A stretch of DNA of 64,000 bases, taken from NCBI RefSeq assembly GCF_001507335.1, contig NZ_LMAH01000001.1, positions 124,001 through 188,000 on the forward strand. The letters are read 5' to 3'. Each line of letters starts with the position of its first letter. The first letter of the stretch is position 1. Positions 944 through 27,684 of this stretch are shown one piece after another. A program made the position numbers and the translations under genes. The DNA is from Chryseobacterium sp. JAH. GTDB taxonomy: Bacteria; Bacteroidota; Bacteroidia; Flavobacteriales; Weeksellaceae. Under the pieces are notes generated by a model that did not search any database, had not been told where the DNA came from, and saw only the letters and a list, made by a program, of their open reading frames with translations.

Positions 944-3592
944 GTGAAAAGAAAACTACTTTCAGTTGCAGCACTTGCAGTGATGACGACATCAATAGTT
1001 CAGGCACAAACTACCATTTTTCCTTTAGGATCATCATGGAAATTTAGTGATAACGACGTAGCTCTTGCTAGTACTTGGAAAGATTCCAACTATGATACGT
1101 CGGCATGGGCCTCTGGAAACGGACCTTTGGGCTATGGTGATCCCGTGACAACTGCCTTTGTTACAGGTGTAGACACAGCTTATCTTACGAAAGATTTCAC
1201 AGTAAACTTAGCCGATCTTAGCGCAACTATGGAATTTGGAGTTAGAAGAGATGACGGTATTGTCGTTTATCTGAACGGCGAAGAGGTTTTTAGAGACAAT
1301 ATGCCTACAGGAGTAGTGACGCATACTACTTTATCCAGTACAACGGTTGACGGCTCAGCGGAAACGGCAATCAATGTTTTTTCAATTCCTAAAAACAAAT
1401 TTGTACAGGGAGTTAACAGAATTGCAATAGAACTGCATAACAGAAGCACCGGAAGTTCAGATTTGACGATTGATGCCTATCTTAAAACTACAGTGGTGAC
1501 TCCTCCTGCTGGAACTGTATTTGCTCAAGGTTCTTCATGGAAATATAAAGATGATAACCAGGCTCAGGTTGCACAGTGGAAAGATACAAGTTTTGATACT
1601 TCAGCATGGTCTTCAGGAAACGGTCCTTTAGGATATGGAGATCCCGTAACAACGATCATTGGTTCAGGATTGGCAACAGCGTATTTTACTAAAGATTTCA
1701 CTGTTAATTTGGCAGATCTTTCGAGCAGTATGGAACTTGGTGTAATGAGAGATGATGGAGTTGTTGTTTATGTTAACGGCGAAGAAGTAGTGAGAGATAA
1801 TATGCCTGCAGGCGTAATTACGCACAATACATTTTCAAGCACTATTGTTGACGGAGCTGCAGAAACTACGTACAATACTTTTATTATTCCAAAAACAAAA
1901 TTTGTACAGGGAAATAACAGAATCTCTATTGAGGTTCACAACAGAGATCTTACAAGTTCAGATCTGAAAATGGATGCTTATCTCAAAAATTCTACTGTAG
2001 TAATACCTCCAGTCTACACGTGTACAGGTACTCACATCAGCTGTTTTACTTCGATTGTACCCACTACTCAAACTTCAAAACTAATTATTCCTGCGGAACA
2101 CAGATTCCAAATGATTTTAAAGGAAGGTGATGCATATACAGAAGGAGGCGGACTTGTTGGCGGACTGAATGACTTCACTGGATATGTAGCTAAAAATGCG
2201 AGCAGCGTAGACGGTTATCTTTCGGTAAACCACGAAACCAATCCTGGTGGAGTGACAATGGCTGAAATTAATTATAATCCTTCGTCAAAACTTTGGGCGC
2301 TGACAAAATCAAGAGGTGTTGATTTTTCTGGAACGAGCTTGGTTCAGACGATTAGAAACTGTTCTGGTGGTGTTACACCTTGGGGAACCATTGTTACAGC
2401 TGAAGAATCTGTTACAGGAAATGATACCAATGCAGATGGATACCATGATTACGGATGGTTGGTAGAAATTAATCCGGTAACCGCTCAGGTAATGTCACAT
2501 AATCCCGCGGGAACAAAAGACAAGCTTTGGCAGATGGGAATTATGAACCATGAAAATGTGGTGATCAATAATACAGGAACCATTGCATATTACGGCGAAG
2601 ATGGCGGTACACACATGGTTTACAAATATGTGATGGACACTCCTAATAATCTATCTTCAGGAAATTTATATGTATTAAAGTTAGATCAAGGTTTGAGCAG
2701 TGGAAATCCTGTAACAACAACAGCTACGTGGGTTCAGGTTCCAAATAAAATACAGGCGGACCAGAATAATACCACGGCTTTAGCACAGTCATTGGGAGGA
2801 ACTTCGTTCAACGGAATTGAAGATATAGAAATTAGCCCTTTGGACGGCAAAATTTACTTTACGGCAAAAGGTTTAAGCAAAGTGTACCGTATGCAGGATA
2901 ATGGTATGACCGCATCTCAAGTTGAAGTTTTCGTTGGCGGATCTTCTACACAATACTCATTCAACACAGCACAAGGTATTAAAACTGAAGCATGGGGGTC
3001 AGGAAATGACAACCTTACCTTTGACGAGTTAGGAAATCTATGGGTTCTTCAGGATGGTGGTAAAAACTACATTTGGGTAGTAGCACCGGATCATACGGCA
3101 GCAAATCCTAAAGTAAGATTATTTGCTTCAATGCCTGCGGGTTCCGAGCCTACAGGTTTAACATTTACACCCGATCATAAATTTGGTTTTTTCTCTATCC
3201 AGCATCCGAATGCGACAATTGATACAGATATTGATGCTACGGGTAACGTAATCAATTATAAAGGAAAATCGGCTACTATGGTCGTTGCCTTACAGCAGTT
3301 TTTAGGTACCGCTGCGGTGTTAGAGACTACAGAAACAATCAAAGAAACAGAGGTTACAGTATCACCGAATCCTACATCAGGATTGGTGAAAATAAATTCT
3401 GCTAAAGCCTTGAAAAACCTTCATATGACAGCTTACAGCATGGATGGTAAGATTGTTTATCAAAAGAAGTTTACAGGAAACAATTCATCTATAGACTTAG
3501 ATTTTACATCTCAATTACAAACTTCAAGAGTATTAATGCTAAACATCGAAGCTGAAGGTTTCCAGAAAACCGTGAAAATTCTCAAAAAATAA
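944..3592 (+). CDS. Secreted PhoX-like (DUF839) protein with duplicated N-terminal domain and T9SS signal
   Basis: The 882-residue product begins at GTG with a signal peptide ending near VQAQ (about residue 22). Residues about 25-185 and 193-350 are two copies of one domain; both contain GSSWK, YDTSAW or FDTSAW, GNGPLGYGDPVTT and NGEEV. Residues about 360-790 resemble the PhoX/DUF839 phosphatase fold, with GGVTPWGTIVTAEES. Residues about 800-882 form a type A T9SS sorting domain opening with VSPNPTSGLVKI. The family includes metal-dependent alkaline phosphatases, so release of phosphate from organic esters at the cell surface is plausible. The residue before the EE pair, Cys in the PhoX enzymes I know, is Ala here, so activity should not be assumed. 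A promoter lies at 909-916 and a terminator at 3611-3646; it looks monocistronic. Confidence 0.8.
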   Translation: MKRKLLSVAALAVMTTSIVQAQTTIFPLGSSWKFSDNDVALASTWKDSNYDTSAWASGNGPLGYGDPVTTAFVTGVDTAYLTKDFTVNLADLSATMEFGVRRDDGIVVYLNGEEVFRDNMPTGVVTHTTLSSTTVDGSAETAINVFSIPKNKFVQGVNRIAIELHNRSTGSSDLTIDAYLKTTVVTPPAGTVFAQGSSWKYKDDNQAQVAQWKDTSFDTSAWSSGNGPLGYGDPVTTIIGSGLATAYFTKDFTVNLADLSSSMELGVMRDDGVVVYVNGEEVVRDNMPAGVITHNTFSSTIVDGAAETTYNTFIIPKTKFVQGNNRISIEVHNRDLTSSDLKMDAYLKNSTVVIPPVYTCTGTHISCFTSIVPTTQTSKLIIPAEHRFQMILKEGDAYTEGGGLVGGLNDFTGYVAKNASSVDGYLSVNHETNPGGVTMAEINYNPSSKLWALTKSRGVDFSGTSLVQTIRNCSGGVTPWGTIVTAEESVTGNDTNADGYHDYGWLVEINPVTAQVMSHNPAGTKDKLWQMGIMNHENVVINNTGTIAYYGEDGGTHMVYKYVMDTPNNLSSGNLYVLKLDQGLSSGNPVTTTATWVQVPNKIQADQNNTTALAQSLGGTSFNGIEDIEISPLDGKIYFTAKGLSKVYRMQDNGMTASQVEVFVGGSSTQYSFNTAQGIKTEAWGSGNDNLTFDELGNLWVLQDGGKNYIWVVAPDHTAANPKVRLFASMPAGSEPTGLTFTPDHKFGFFSIQHPNATIDTDIDATGNVINYKGKSATMVVALQQFLGTAAVLETTETIKETEVTVSPNPTSGLVKINSAKALKNLHMTAYSMDGKIVYQKKFTGNNSSIDLDFTSQLQTSRVLMLNIEAEGFQKTVKILKK

Positions 3593-22135: not shown

Positions 22136-24877
22136 TTATTTCACATTCAAATCAACAGAATTCAATCTCAATGAATTTAAAATAACAGACAGAGAGCTGA
22201 TGCTCATTGACGCTGCAGCAATCATTGGAGATAATAAAATTCCGAAAAAAGGATACAACAATCCTGCCGCAATTGGAATTCCCAGAACATTATAAACAAA
22301 GGCGAAAAAGAGATTTTCTTTAATATTTTTAAGGAGTTTTTCACTTAGAATTTTTGCTTTGGCAACACCGATTAAATCACCTTTCAATAAAGTAATTTCT
22401 GCACTTTCGATGGCGACATCAGTTCCTGTTCCCATGGCAATGCCTATATTGGCTTGCGCTAGGGCAGGAGAGTCGTTGATTCCATCGCCAGTCATGGCTA
22501 CAATTTTTCCTTGTACCTGAAGTTTTTTGACTTCATTTAATTTATCCGCAGGAAGACAATTGGCTTTAAAATGCTTAATTCCCAGTGCGTCTGCAACCGC
22601 TTTTGCGGTGTGCTCGTTATCACCGGTCATCATGATGACATTGATTCCTTCATTCAGAAGCAATTCGACTGCTTTTTTAGAACTTTCTTTTATTTTATCG
22701 GTAAAACTTATAAATCCTAAAACTTCAATTTCTTGCGCAACGTAAGAAATTGTATGCGCTTTTGACTGGATTTCGACTGCTTTCTGTTTTAAAATTTCAG
22801 AAATCTGAATCTGATGTGAAGTCAGAAGATTTTCATTTCCTAAATAAACTGTTTTTCCATTGATAATTCCTTTCACCCCTTTCCCAGAAATATTTTCAAA
22901 ATGACTTACTTTTTCAGCTGAAATATTTTCGTCTTTAGCTTTTTTAATTACCGCGTTTGACAGTGGATGTTCTGAATTTTGATTTAGTGAATATGCTAAC
23001 TTTAAAACTGAATTTTGATTACTAACTAAAGCTTCAATATGTTCAACTGAAGGCTTCCCTTCAGTCAAAGTACCTGTTTTATCAGTGATTAGAACATCTA
23101 CCTTATCCATTTGTTCAAGGGCTTCAGCATTTTTGATTAAAATACCATTCTTCGCTCCCTTACCAATTCCAACCATGAGAGACATTGGAGTTGCCAAACC
23201 TAAAGCACACGGACAAGCCACGATGAGAACGGCGACAGCATTCACAAAAGCGAACAGACTTTTTTTACCTTCCGGACCGAAAAACTGCCATAAAATGAAT
23301 GTAAGAACCGCAACCAATATCACAATCGGAACAAAAACTTTTGCGACCTTATCTGTAAGTTTTTGAATCGGAGCACGACTTCGGCTTGCGTCGTTCACCA
23401 TTTTTATAATCTTTGAAAGCAATGTGTCATCACCTACTTTTTCAGCTTTCATGATGAATACTTGGTTTCCGTTGATTGTTCCTGACGTTACTTTGTCATC
23501 CAAAGTTTTCTCAACAGGAATAGGTTCTCCGGTAATCATACTTTCGTCAATTACGGAATTTCCTTCGGTAATTTTTCCGTCGACAGGAATTTTTTCTCCG
23601 GGTTTTACTCTTAATAAATCACCAATCTTTATTTCAGACAGTAGAACTCTTTTTTCCTCGCCGTTCATCAGCAAATTGGCTTCATCCGGAGAAAGATTCA
23701 TCAGTTCTTTGATGGCATTTCCTGTCTTCTTGTGAGCGGCAGCTTCCATGAGCTGACCTAAAATCACCAATGTAATAATCACACAAACTGCCTCAAAGTA
23801 CAGTGGGATCTCATGGCCATGACCACGAATTTCATGCGGAATTATATCTGGAAATAGTAAAGAGACAATGCTGAAAATAAATGCCGCAGAAACACCCAAG
23901 GCTATTAAACTGAACATATTTAAGTTCCAGGTTTTGAATGAAACAAAACCTCTTTTCATCAAAAACCATCCGGAATAAAACAGCACAGGAATGGTTAGAA
24001 TCAATTCAATATAACCTTGACTATGATGTGAAAAAGGAAAATCAATCACCATTCCTCCCATCGATAAAATAAAAACGGGAATTGTAAATAGTAATGATGT
24101 GATGAATTTTCTTTTTAAAATATTGAAAGTCTCATCTTCTTCGCCATCACCGTTTTTATCAGGATATTTTACCAAATCCATTCCACAGACCGGACAGCCA
24201 ACGTTCGAATCATAGGTTTTATCTCCTTCACAAAACATTGGACAATAATACTTCCCCGCCATGTCATCCGTAACTTTAGGCTTTTCCTGATGCTGATGGT
24301 TGTGAGAATGTAAATGATGATTTGAAACTGAATTTTTAACTAGACCTTCAGTAATTTCTTCTAAATGCATGTGACAAATCGGACAATCACCTTTCTCATC
24401 ATAAGTTTTATCGCCTTCACAAAACATCGGACAGTAATAATCTCCAATGTGATTTTTGAAATTTTCAGGTAAATTGGTTTTAGAAAAGGTAGGTTTGAAG
24501 TTTGGATCTTTTGCGAGTTTCTCTTCAATTGGAACTAAATACATATTGCAAACCTGACATCTTTCGCCTTGTTTAAAATAAACCTTTTCACCTTCGCATT
24601 CCATCGGGCAATAGTAAACTGAAGATGGAGAAACTCTGTCTTGAGGTTTCACAATGGCGACTTCGGGATGATCAGGATCTCCAAGTTTATAGTTTCCTAC
24701 GTCTTGTAAAACTTTATTTAATTCCTCTACGTTTATTTCTCTGTCAGAATTAATAGTCGCTGTATTGCTTTTAAGATTAATATCTGCGTGTATATTTTCA
24801 AGACTGTTGAGTTTTTCTGAAATTTTCTTTTGGCAACCTGAACAGGTCATTCCAAGAATATGATATTGTTTTTGCAT
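22136..24877 (-). CDS. copA: Copper-transporting P1B-type ATPase
   Basis: The 913-residue pump exports Cu+ (or a similar soft metal) across the inner membrane using ATP. Residues 1-65 form an HMA domain with GMTCSGC (Cys12, Cys15). Three Cys-rich heavy-metal-binding modules follow (about 87-115, 144-172, 209-238), each with YYCPM, CEG and a CxxC pair, plus a His-rich linker (near 195-207). The membrane core has the CPC motif in [12 protein letters not shown] (near 553), phosphorylation site DKTGTLTEG (near 597), EHPLSNAV and [13 protein letters not shown] and EHPL place it in the CopA-like group. It lies 137 bases downstream of the HMA/AraC regulator on the same strand. Confidence 0.93.
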
Positions 24878-25014
24878 GGTCCTAAATTTATTCTACAAAT
24901 TTCCAAAATGAAAACGGAAGACTGTTATACATTTAAGGATAATAGTTACAGAATTTGGCAGGAATTGAGTGGAAGAGTTGGAGGGTTTTAATAAGATTTG
25001 TAAACAACAGTTAT

Positions 25015-25575
25015 TTAAATAAAATCAAGAGGTTTCCTATTTTGATCTTTTAGTTTTTTAAACTCTGTAGGCGTATTTCCCGTTATGCTTTTGAACTGTG
25101 ATGAAAGATGCTGCACACTTTTATATCCCATATGTCCGGCGATTTCGGTTAAGGTAAAGTCGTTATTGAATAGAAGCTCCTTTACTTTTTCAATTTTTTG
25201 TAAAATATAATATTGTTCTAAAGTAACACTTTCATTTTGCGAAAAAACTTTAGATAATGTGCTGTAATCCTTGTGAAGTGCACTGCTGAGAAAATTTGAT
25301 AAAACGAAATTTTCGTCGGTGTCTAATCTTCCGACTTTTAGAATTACAAGATTTTTTATGTTTTCGATAAGTTGCTGTGACGGATTTTTTATAATCTCAA
25401 AACCAATTTCCTGCAGCTTATTTTCTAGTTGAATTAACTCACTTTCTGAAATTTCAGATTCTGCATCAACTTCTCCTAATCCAATGCTTTTAATCTTAAT
25501 TTCAGAATGATCAAAAATGCCTGCAACCGCTGAAATACAGCGGTTACATACCATATTTTTTATGAAAATTTTCAT
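25015..25575 (-). CDS. AraC-type regulator with N-terminal CxxC metal domain
   Basis: The 186-residue protein fuses an HMA-like domain to an AraC DNA-binding domain. Residues 1-60 have the fold pattern of metallochaperones with CNRC (Cys10, Cys13) in FIKNMVCNRCISAV. Residues about 110-183 form the double helix-turn-helix (FTLTEIAGHMGYKSVQHLSSQFKSI, then GNTPTEFKK). Direct metal sensing is the natural reading. Its start overlaps the thioesterase stop by four bases (ATGA) and it is followed by the copper ATPase gene, so it probably controls copper export. Metal identity is inferred from context. Confidence 0.88.
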   Translation of the reverse strand: MKIFIKNMVCNRCISAVAGIFDHSEIKIKSIGLGEVDAESEISESELIQLENKLQEIGFEIIKNPSQQLIENIKNLVILKVGRLDTDENFVLSNFLSSALHKDYSTLSKVFSQNESVTLEQYYILQKIEKVKELLFNNDFTLTEIAGHMGYKSVQHLSSQFKSITGNTPTEFKKLKDQNRKPLDFI

Positions 25576-25967
25576 TGCTGACTGTTCAGTCTGTCTTTTA
25601 CAAATTCTACTTTTGTTTTTCCGTGTGGTGAAGGATTTCCGTCTTCATCAAGATTTACCATTACAATTCTGTCAACGGTAATAATTGTCTGATGCGTCAT
25701 TTTATTTCTAACTGCACATTTTAAAGTAAGTGACGTAGATCCAAAAGCTGAAACTTCAATACCAATTTCAATTATATCACCTTGTTTTGCAGAACTTACA
25801 AAATTGATTTCCGAGATATATTTGGTTACTACCTTTTTGTTTTCAAGCTGAATGACAGCATACAAAGCGGCTTCCTCATCGATCCATTGTAAAAGTCTTC
25901 CTCCAAAAAGTGATTGGTTGGGATTTAAATCTTCAGGTTTTACCCATTTTCTGGTATGATAATTCAT
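25572..25967 (-). CDS. Acyl-CoA thioesterase, hotdog fold
   Basis: The 131-residue protein matches the YciA/BFIT-like acyl-CoA hydrolase group: NPNQSLFGGRLLQWIDEEAALYA holds the catalytic acidic residue, followed by VTKYISEINFVSSAKQGDIIEIG. Such hexameric enzymes hydrolyse acyl-CoA thioesters. It has a good -7 box and its stop overlaps the start of the HMA/AraC gene, which makes it the promoter-proximal gene of the metal operon. The functional link to copper is unclear. Confidence 0.87.
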   Translation of the reverse strand: MNYHTRKWVKPEDLNPNQSLFGGRLLQWIDEEAALYAVIQLENKKVVTKYISEINFVSSAKQGDIIEIGIEVSAFGSTSLTLKCAVRNKMTHQTIITVDRIVMVNLDEDGNPSPHGKTKVEFVKDRLNSQQ

Positions 25968-25986
25968 TTAATTGATATTTGCTGAA

Positions 25987-25994
25987 CAAATTTA
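25987..25994 (-). promoter_or_regulatory. -7 box of the thioesterase-regulator-copA unit
   Basis: On the minus strand TAAATTTG lies 19 bases before the thioesterase ATG. Confidence 0.55.
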
Positions 25995-26062
25995 ATGTTT
26001 AAAACTGAAATTTTGCGCTGTTCATCATGTTTTCATTAAAACAATAATATTTATATAGTCAA

Positions 26063-26473
26063 TTATTTTTTTAATCGCATCGCTTTTACTTTCTTGACGG
26101 AATCATTTATTAGAAAGCTTTGATACTCGGGACTCTCGAGGGGAACCATTGCGACTTTACCATCTTCGTTATGATGAAATCCAAAGCCGTAAGTTTTTGC
26201 TAATGACGAACAGCGGAGACAAGGTTGACCTTTGGAAAAAAACTTCTGTCTCTCAATCTCTTTTTCACTGTCAGAAATGTCATTTTTAATTACATAACAA
26301 TTAAAAATGAGATCGTCTGATGTGTATTTATACGCATTTTTAGCAAGAAATTCGTACTGCAGAAGAGCTGCTGTTTTCTGTTTCTTTTCTGGGGGAATCT
26401 GACTTGTTGAAACCGGACAGTCTTGAGCAACTTCAATAAACGTATTGGTATAGTTGGTTGTATGCTGTTTCAT
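26063..26473 (-). CDS. DUF6157-family protein
   Basis: The 136-residue protein has the features I know for DUF6157: an opening TTNYTNTFIEVAQDCPV, a central YKYTSDDLIFNCYV, and a C-terminal SKGQPCLRCSSLAKTYGFGFHHNEDGKVA. It has no signal peptide or membrane helix, and its function is unknown. Two Cys in CLRC could bind a metal, but this is speculation. It is divergent from the RRM gene. Confidence 0.75.
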   Translation of the reverse strand: MKQHTTNYTNTFIEVAQDCPVSTSQIPPEKKQKTAALLQYEFLAKNAYKYTSDDLIFNCYVIKNDISDSEKEIERQKFFSKGQPCLRCSSLAKTYGFGFHHNEDGKVAMVPLESPEYQSFLINDSVKKVKAMRLKK

Positions 26474-27216: not shown

Positions 27217-27684
27217 TCAGTCTTTTTTCTTTTTCTTTTTCTTATCCTTTCCTTTTTTATCTTTCTTAGTTTTCAATATTTCTTCGGCGAATTCTAATGT
27301 CGGAGCCTTTGCTTTTTCAGGTTTCATTTCAATTTTAAGATCAAAATATTCTTTAAGGTCATTCTGAGAAACTAAACTTTCTTTAAATAAAAATTCTAAA
27401 ATTTCACTGCCTGAATTATTGAAAAAATTATGGGTAAGATCTCTAAGTATAAACTTTTTATACTCATCAAAAGGAACAAGAACACTGTACTTAAAGATTC
27501 GACCTTCTTTTTCTGTAGATAAATAACCCTTCTCAACCAAGATTTTCAAATATGTAGAAACTGTATTTTGATGTGGTTTTGGTTCAGGATGCTTTTCCAT
27601 CACCTCTTTTAAATAGAAAGAATTCAAATCCCAAAAAAGCTTCATTAAGTTTTCTTCTGCTGATGTAAGATGATTTATTTTCAT
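27217..27684 (-). CDS. BlaI/MecI-family repressor with Lys-rich tail
   Basis: The first 120 residues are a winged helix of the BlaI/MecI/CopY family (LTSAEENLMKLFWDLNSFYLKEV, QNTVSTYLKILVEKGYLSTEKEGRIFKYS). The protein is 155 residues, longer than usual because of a C-terminal extension that ends in an almost pure Lys/Asp tail (about the last 16 residues). Partners of this family are usually BlaR1/MecR1-type membrane peptidases, but none is nearby. A 26-base imperfect palindrome at 27705-27730, just upstream of the start, is a good operator candidate for self-control. Confidence 0.87.
   Translation of the reverse strand: MKINHLTSAEENLMKLFWDLNSFYLKEVMEKHPEPKPHQNTVSTYLKILVEKGYLSTEKEGRIFKYSVLVPFDEYKKFILRDLTHNFFNNSGSEILEFLFKESLVSQNDLKEYFDLKIEMKPEKAKAPTLEFAEEILKTKKDKKGKDKKKKKKKD

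Follow-up and report, generated by a model that had tools for sequence, protein, structure and literature searches.

An HMA-AraC regulator as a candidate Cu(I) sensor, with a predicted operator before a P1B-type ATPase gene of Chryseobacterium sp. JAH

We analysed a 64,000-nucleotide stretch of DNA from Chryseobacterium sp. JAH (contig NZ_LMAH01000001.1, positions 124,001 to 188,000; hereafter the window), focusing on a gene for a putative copper-responsive regulator and the pump gene that follows it. Three genes lie here on the minus strand. A 4HBT (YciA-like) acyl-CoA thioesterase gene (25572..25967), assigned by Pfam 4HBT and neighbour comparison as a lineage-specific neighbour, comes first. 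It is followed by the regulator gene (25015..25575), whose open reading frame, Pfam matches, profiles and structure model describe a 186-residue HMA-AraC protein and candidate Cu(I) sensor, and then by a P1B-type ATPase gene (22136..24877), whose 913-residue product, with one HMA domain, three HMBD stretches and pump motifs, is the predicted Cu(I) pump and proposed target. The thioesterase and regulator genes overlap by 4 nt (ATGA), and 137 nt separate the regulator from the ATPase. Among named organisms, Chryseobacterium aahli (84%) and C. kimseyorum (81%) carry the nearest relatives of the regulator.

We then compared 70 loci of the window's own family, among which some species are counted twice under two names. 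The thioesterase stands ahead of the regulator in 63/70 loci, overlapping it by ATGA in 60 of these 63 and by 1 nt in the other three. An ATPase gene on the same strand follows downstream in 66/70; two of the four loci without it (L016, L065) had little downstream DNA available. The order thioesterase-regulator-ATPase is kept in most Chryseobacterium loci. This conservation indicates that the layout is not due to chance. The gene positions confirm two statements of an earlier sequence-only reading of the window, namely that the first two genes overlap by four bases (the 25572-25575 region) and that a copper pump follows on the same strand.

To characterise the regulator, we searched it against Pfam. 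Its C-terminal part (residues 96-174; 25054..25290) is an AraC-type double helix-turn-helix (HTH) domain, matching HTH_18 (E 6.5e-14; 52.4 bits, cut-off 33.6) and HTH_AraC (41.1 bits, cut-off 26.6) and resembling MarA, SoxS and AraC. These were the only two Pfam matches; no MerR HTH, ArsR-type HTH, Trns_repr_metal (CsoR, PF02583) or Penicillinase_R (CopY/BlaI, PF03965) domain was matched. The N-terminal part (residues 1-63; 25387..25575) was assessed by hhalign and an AlphaFold2 model as a diverged HMA (metallochaperone-like) domain. The hhalign comparison of the regulator N-terminal family with copper HMA domains gave 96.8% probability (E 2.5e-10), while the controls gave 0.3% for shuffled columns, in a run that came with a format warning, and 0.1% for the HTH half. 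An HMA profile built from non-regulator proteins only was searched against relatives from a second set of 78 loci, which are the best matches to the regulator, mostly one per genus, 77 of them from other families (two of 80 loci, L174 and L178, were dropped as no regulator frame was found). The profile matched 54/78 relatives, 27 of them at E <= 1e-3, and residue-shuffled copies of the relatives gave no match. A tandem regulator paralogue in L128 scored 20.5 bits with Pfam HMA, under the 24.8 cut-off.

In the AlphaFold2 model (mean pLDDT 89.7), a beta-alpha-beta-beta-alpha-beta order is followed by a helix and the double HTH, and the CxxC sits at the start of helix 1. The first HMA matches in Foldseek were GolB (E 0.07) and Atx1 (E 0.09), with weak E-values and high probability, and structural re-alignment gave Z 7.2-7.7 for GolB, Atx1, CopZ and HAH1. 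The codons of Cys10-x-x-Cys13 (MVCNRC), the proposed Cu(I) site, lie at 25537..25548. Cys10 is present in 110/111 relatives and Cys13 in 111/111, the window copy included, in the frame K-N-M-V-C-x-R-C, and the CxxC occurs in 78/78 members of the second set. By family profile and modelled fold, residues 1-63 are an HMA homologue. The sequence-only reading had described a CxxC metallochaperone-like domain fused to an AraC domain, with cysteines at positions 10 and 13; both cysteines are there, and the domain becomes visible only through family profiles or the structure model. A terminator-like hairpin (25522-25548, minus strand) lies over the CxxC codons; inspection of 10 relatives by eye showed no conservation, and chance alone would give 0.7 sites of this kind.

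The neighbours of the regulator were then examined in the 78 loci. A same-strand P1B ATPase gene lies within genes -3 to +5 of the regulator in 50/78 loci, and when both strands are counted, 63/78 loci have an HMA, HMBD or P1B gene in this range. Other neighbours include copZ-like HMA proteins and an HMA-MauE protein, and one locus has a multicopper oxidase.

We next aligned the gap upstream of the ATPase gene. It is little changed in the Chryseobacterium group, reading T(A/G)TAACnATTATCCTTAAATTTATAACA, then GAAATTTG. Within it, alignment and matrix scans mark a predicted operator (24922..24951, minus strand) made of TGTAAC (24945-24950) and TATAAC (24924-24929) with a 21-nt period and TATCC between them; the consensus is a direct repeat, TRTAAC-N15-TRTAAC. 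Repeat and promoter-like element can still be made out in five loci with 1.0-5.8 kb between the regulator and the start of the ATPase (L072, L084, L067, L090 and L092), L090 being the most diverged of them. In L040, a long (AACT)n tandem repeat stands immediately upstream of the predicted operator.

The same repeat was found in other families. We assessed 41 of their regulator-to-copper-gene gaps (42 minus L110, which is from Chryseobacterium), three of which (L128, L138 and L148) precede a tandem regulator paralogue. Pairs of the word T(A/G)(T/C)AA exactly 21 nt apart occur in 26/41 gaps; every other distance between 8 and 35 nt is found in at most 3 gaps, and 300 shuffles, which preserve base content only and not dinucleotides, give at most 4. 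A matrix trained on Chryseobacterium (62/63 gaps, 24 distinct sites; L041, missed by the regular expression, left out) found a site in 26/41 gaps at <=1 of 100 shuffles of the same kind. Regions upstream of the regulator itself carry the 21-nt word pair in only 2/78 loci. With a matrix trained without Chryseobacterium gaps, 24922-24951 is the best site in the 64-kb window on either strand, at 20.1 bits (next 14.5), and the Chryseobacterium consensus with <=3 mismatches finds a single site in the strain's own genome and none in the control.

De novo motif discovery on the 41 gaps yielded tTAtAActctTtTCcAaAATtnTGTAACa. Scanning both strands of the 78 loci with this motif at 18 bits revealed 51 sites in 50 loci, compared with 1 in reversed sequences. 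Forty-eight of the 51 sites are within 150 nt of an HMA- or P1B-labelled gene, two of these being tandem regulator paralogues, and of the 18 sites outside the training gaps, 15 stand before HMA or P1B genes. An operator-like site is also carried by tandem regulator paralogues and by HMA-MauE-type genes. L128, L138 and L148 hold tandem HMA-AraC regulator pairs whose second regulator is preceded by an operator-like repeat. In seven loci (L100, L107, L108, L112, L115, L120 and L123), the operator stands before a protein of 237-247 residues with an HMA domain; the L100 protein, the only one of the seven scanned with Pfam, is an HMA-MauE fusion.

Hits of a degenerate operator pattern (<=1 mismatch) were also sought in 198 Bacteroidota genomes. 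They occur in 26/96 regulator-bearing and 3/102 other genomes; the reversed pattern occurs in 12 and 1, respectively, and because of this control the genome count was not used as proof. Among 38 distinct hits inspected (the 39th, G019:C11, was left out), 11 stand before HMA or P1B genes, 2 before RND pumps and 1 before an MVSNRC family member, the others lying inside frames or before other genes. In regulator-lacking genomes, all 5 hits are inside frames. The MVSNRC member (L215; G029:C1, ~1714177-1714728), which has lost the first cysteine, is itself preceded by an operator-like repeat. The related genomes G082 and G176 (L232 and L233; site 3001-3027, reverse strand) carry a second site before an RND (ACR_tran) pump gene, which is likely a regulon member in trans.

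The position of the repeat relative to the promoter was then assessed. The promoter consensus of Bacteroidota is TTTG at -33 and TAnnTTTG at -7, and AraC-family proteins are mostly activators. The ATPase promoter has a -7-like element, GAAATTTG (24896..24903, minus strand), with the operator covering the -33 position and no TTG there. An nNTTTG, taken as the -7 box, begins 28-29 nt after the second box of the repeat in 56/63 Chryseobacterium-type gaps and in 21/35 other gaps scoring >=15 bits (of 42, L110 included), so that this box covers the -33 position. AraC/XylS-family proteins use direct-repeat sites beside or over the -33/-35 box; the candidate repeat lies at such a position and may be a site of this kind, its binding by the regulator being predicted. 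Among the pump promoters, 64/65 have a recognised -7 element; TTG at -33 occurs in 0/64 and TA at the -7 start in 0/64. Thioesterase promoters have a recognised -7 element in 56/62, with TTG at -33 in 47/56 and TA in 56/56. In the window, the thioesterase-regulator promoter has a consensus -7 element, TAAATTTG (25987..25994, minus strand), and no operator. By eye it has no TTG at -33 and is apparently among the 9/56 lacking it, so its basal, constitutive expression is a view that rests on relatives. The design of the pump promoter suggests dependence on an activator, and the TTTCC lying some 10 nt from the first TRTAAC would suit a tandem arrangement of two subunits, each making two HTH contacts.

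To place the regulator among copper sensors of the phylum, we examined its distribution. It has a match at E <= 1e-3 in 229/395 Bacteroidota genomes, a count that includes plain AraC proteins, and close or fairly close relatives (E <= 1e-18, tallied by hand, as was the comparison with CsoR) in 96/198. On plasmids, 28 records cover >= 80% of the query, and the 25 listed all have names that we take to be of Bacteroidota. The CueR model exceeds its 147.4-bit cut-off in 0/198 genomes, and some MerR-type match occurs in 124/198. CsoR-family genes are present in 61/198 genomes, 8 of which also carry a strong relative of the regulator, a distribution that partly reflects lineage. In the strain's own genome there is no PF02583 (CsoR) match; the Pfam HMA scan gave three matches (one sub-cut-off), all in frames of 795-918 residues, and no stand-alone CopZ-like chaperone was seen in it. 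A second regulator copy in this genome (L118, 8079-8660; C5:176078-176659) reads MVSLRC, with the first Cys changed to Ser, and may have lost metal sensing. With no evident copper neighbours by eye and a best nearby operator score of 12.1 bits, its candidacy as the pump regulator is unsupported.

Taken together, the HMA-like domain with its near-invariant MVCxRC joined to an AraC domain, the linkage to copper genes and the dedicated repeat site point to the regulator as a copper sensor. We consider the best explanation, with a probability of about two in three, to be that it is an HMA-AraC one-component Cu(I) sensor that binds the TRTAAC repeat and activates copper efflux genes; this agrees with the sequence-only reading, which had proposed a copper sensor in a single protein, different in type from CueR, CsoR and CopY. 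The regulator would be a cytoplasmic protein whose basal supply comes from the thioesterase-regulator promoter, and two subunits would bind TRTAAC-N15-TRTAAC (24922-24951), which covers -33 in the pump promoter. Cu(I) taken up by Cys10 and Cys13 would allow the complex to recruit RNA polymerase, whereupon the P1B ATPase would be made and copper exported. Of this picture, the sequence itself shows the domains, the conserved CxxC, the association of family, repeat and copper genes and where the repeat lies, and from these we infer that the protein binds the site, that its ligand is Cu(I) and that it activates instead of repressing. In other Bacteroidota, the same regulator-site pair would serve copZ-like plus copA-like genes, single P1B ATPases or HMA-MauE-type proteins; two genomes would add an RND pump. 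The family is likely a new bacterial copper-sensor family. We also lean, with less assurance, towards its being a fifth Cu(I)-sensing efflux-regulator family and a major one-component copper sensor of Bacteroidota, with one conserved operator that governs pumps, chaperones and RND exporters as its regulon.

Several results weigh against this reading. The window regulator gives no match to Pfam HMA (PF00403) up to E = 10 and is not matched by the non-regulator HMA profile. ACT domains, which have a similar fold, tie with HMA domains in structural re-alignment; we chose HMA because sequence and the CxxC decide. The 78 loci are not a random sample, 15 of them hold a regulator with an intact CxxC and no copper gene among its neighbours, and 28 have no site >=18 bits. 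The degenerate pattern with <=2 mismatches gives 3 hits in the own genome compared with 2 for its control, and the 39 hits in 198 genomes stand only threefold above the 13 of the reversed control. CueR-like hits of 98-138 bits, near the cut-off, occur in 25/198 genomes, so some members of the phylum may rely on MerR-type copper sensors. The ATPase passes a cadmium model as well as the copper model, and a site over -33 would also fit a repressor.

Such a repressor, with the same protein and operator, would in its apo form cover -33 and be released by Cu(I), as with CsoR and CopY. The repeat does cover the -33 position; however, TTG is missing there in 64/64 pump promoters, which therefore look unable to fire well unaided. 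Moreover, no autoregulatory site precedes the regulator (2/78), and AraC-family proteins are described as mostly activators in the part of the source available (PMC8151288). We regard repression as unlikely, and activation by the Cu(I)-bound regulator is favoured.

The pump bears on a further alternative, namely that the regulator controls the ATPase but senses Ag, Hg, Cd or redox/thiol stress, its domain being HMA-like by descent only. GolB, the top-ranked HMA match in Foldseek, binds gold, and the ATPase passes TIGR01512 (Cd; 410.5 bits, cut-off 313.5), although with fewer bits than the 579.7 (cut-off 397) of the copper-translocating model TIGR01511. On the other side, the ATPase, a protein with an N-terminal HMA domain and three HMBD stretches, carries CPC at 555, NLFFAFVYN at 855 (N-x6-YN) and MSISS at 891 (M-x2-SS), which we take to be Cu(I) pump signatures. 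In other families, the regulator's neighbours are copZ-like HMA proteins and P1B ATPases, with a multicopper oxidase in one locus. The ATPase is thus a predicted P1B-1 Cu(I) pump, and a signal other than copper appears improbable.

The sequence-only reading had joined the three genes in one copper-induced operon with its operator at 25968-26062, ahead of the thioesterase. Shared strand, the ATGA overlap (60/63) and the gene order kept in most Chryseobacterium loci speak for such an operon, but it is very improbable, since the 137-nt gap gives the ATPase its own conserved repeat and promoter-like element, recognisable even at 1.0-5.8 kb separation, the operator model scores no higher than -10.0 bits in 25968-26062 but 20.1 at 24922-24951, and thioesterase orthologues occur elsewhere without the regulator. 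An operator upstream of the thioesterase was rejected, the alignment showing the consensus -7 element and no repeat. Read-through from the upstream promoter into the ATPase gene may occur.

The same reading had found the acyl-CoA thioesterase ahead of the regulator puzzling in function, a puzzle that the comparison does not support. The protein matches 4HBT (PF03061) at 46.1 bits (cut-off 20.6) and reaches just 23.8 of 162 bits with the YciA model; some match to it occurs in 115/118 genomes. In the 17/17 best loci outside the window's own family, its orthologues (56-76% identity) have no regulator within ~1.5 kb on each side, and the regulator-pump pair persists without the thioesterase. A functional tie between thioesterase and copper is therefore unsupported. 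The gene is probably a neighbour that lends promoter and coupled translation and stands outside the copper circuit, a role through coupled translation being possible. Ahead of it lie a DUF6157 gene (26063-26473, minus strand), whose position is kept in only part of the Chryseobacterium loci, and, ~1.2 kb upstream, a BlaI/MecI/CopY-family (PF03965) repressor gene (27217-27684, minus strand).

If the HMA-AraC sensor reading is true, the family would help fill the copper-sensor gap of Bacteroidota, and a copper-carrier fold would itself serve as the sensor, so that carrier, sensor and pump could hand copper on to one another through their matching HMA domains. The candidate site is precise, 30 nt, and the idea is therefore directly testable. 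The system could also supply a copper-inducible promoter part for Flavobacterium-type hosts.

Finally, we compared the regulator with known systems. No description of an HMA-AraC copper sensor was found in the open-access literature, among the matches listed. In the part available of a 2023 survey of marine bacteria, only two-component and extracytoplasmic function (ECF) copper-system homologues are given for its Bacteroidota (PMC10141476), and the available part of another paper concerns cadA, czcA and czcD (PMC6532875). A 2020 review, as far as its accessible text goes, names four families of Cu(I)-sensing efflux regulators, which are MerR-, CsoR-, CopY- and ArsR-like (PMC7558416); by its predicted domains, the HMA-AraC regulator is best read as falling outside all four. 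CueR, of the MerR family, is described there as a one-component two-Cys Cu(I) sensor activating a P1B ATPase gene, as proposed here, but it differs in DNA-binding family and DNA site. CsoR and CopY likewise sense Cu(I) and control copper efflux in that account, and their domains are unrelated to those of the regulator.

The nearest AraC case that we found is YbtA, the regulator of the yersiniabactin island, which shares with the regulator the AraC family and a CXXC; the portion of the source available describes this CXXC as needed for copper-linked activation and the sites as putative repeats (PMC8725597). Unlike the proposed sensor, YbtA requires Cu(II)-yersiniabactin and controls siderophore genes, and the position of its CXXC (206/209) is within a predicted ligand-binding domain rich in cysteines, which we assume to be other than HMA. 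With MarA, SoxS and Rob, the regulator shares the C-terminal double HTH (Z 13.6 for MarA, 1bl0; 12.5 for SoxS, 7w5w). The sites of these proteins overlap the promoter and, to our knowledge, the proteins have no metal domain; unlike theirs, the candidate site here is a tandem repeat with a 21-nt period. The HMA metallochaperones CopZ and Atx1 share the homologous N-terminal domain with its CxxC at the start of helix 1. They have GMTCxxC, a motif also seen in the window ATPase, whereas the regulator has MVCxRC and a fused AraC DNA-binding domain.

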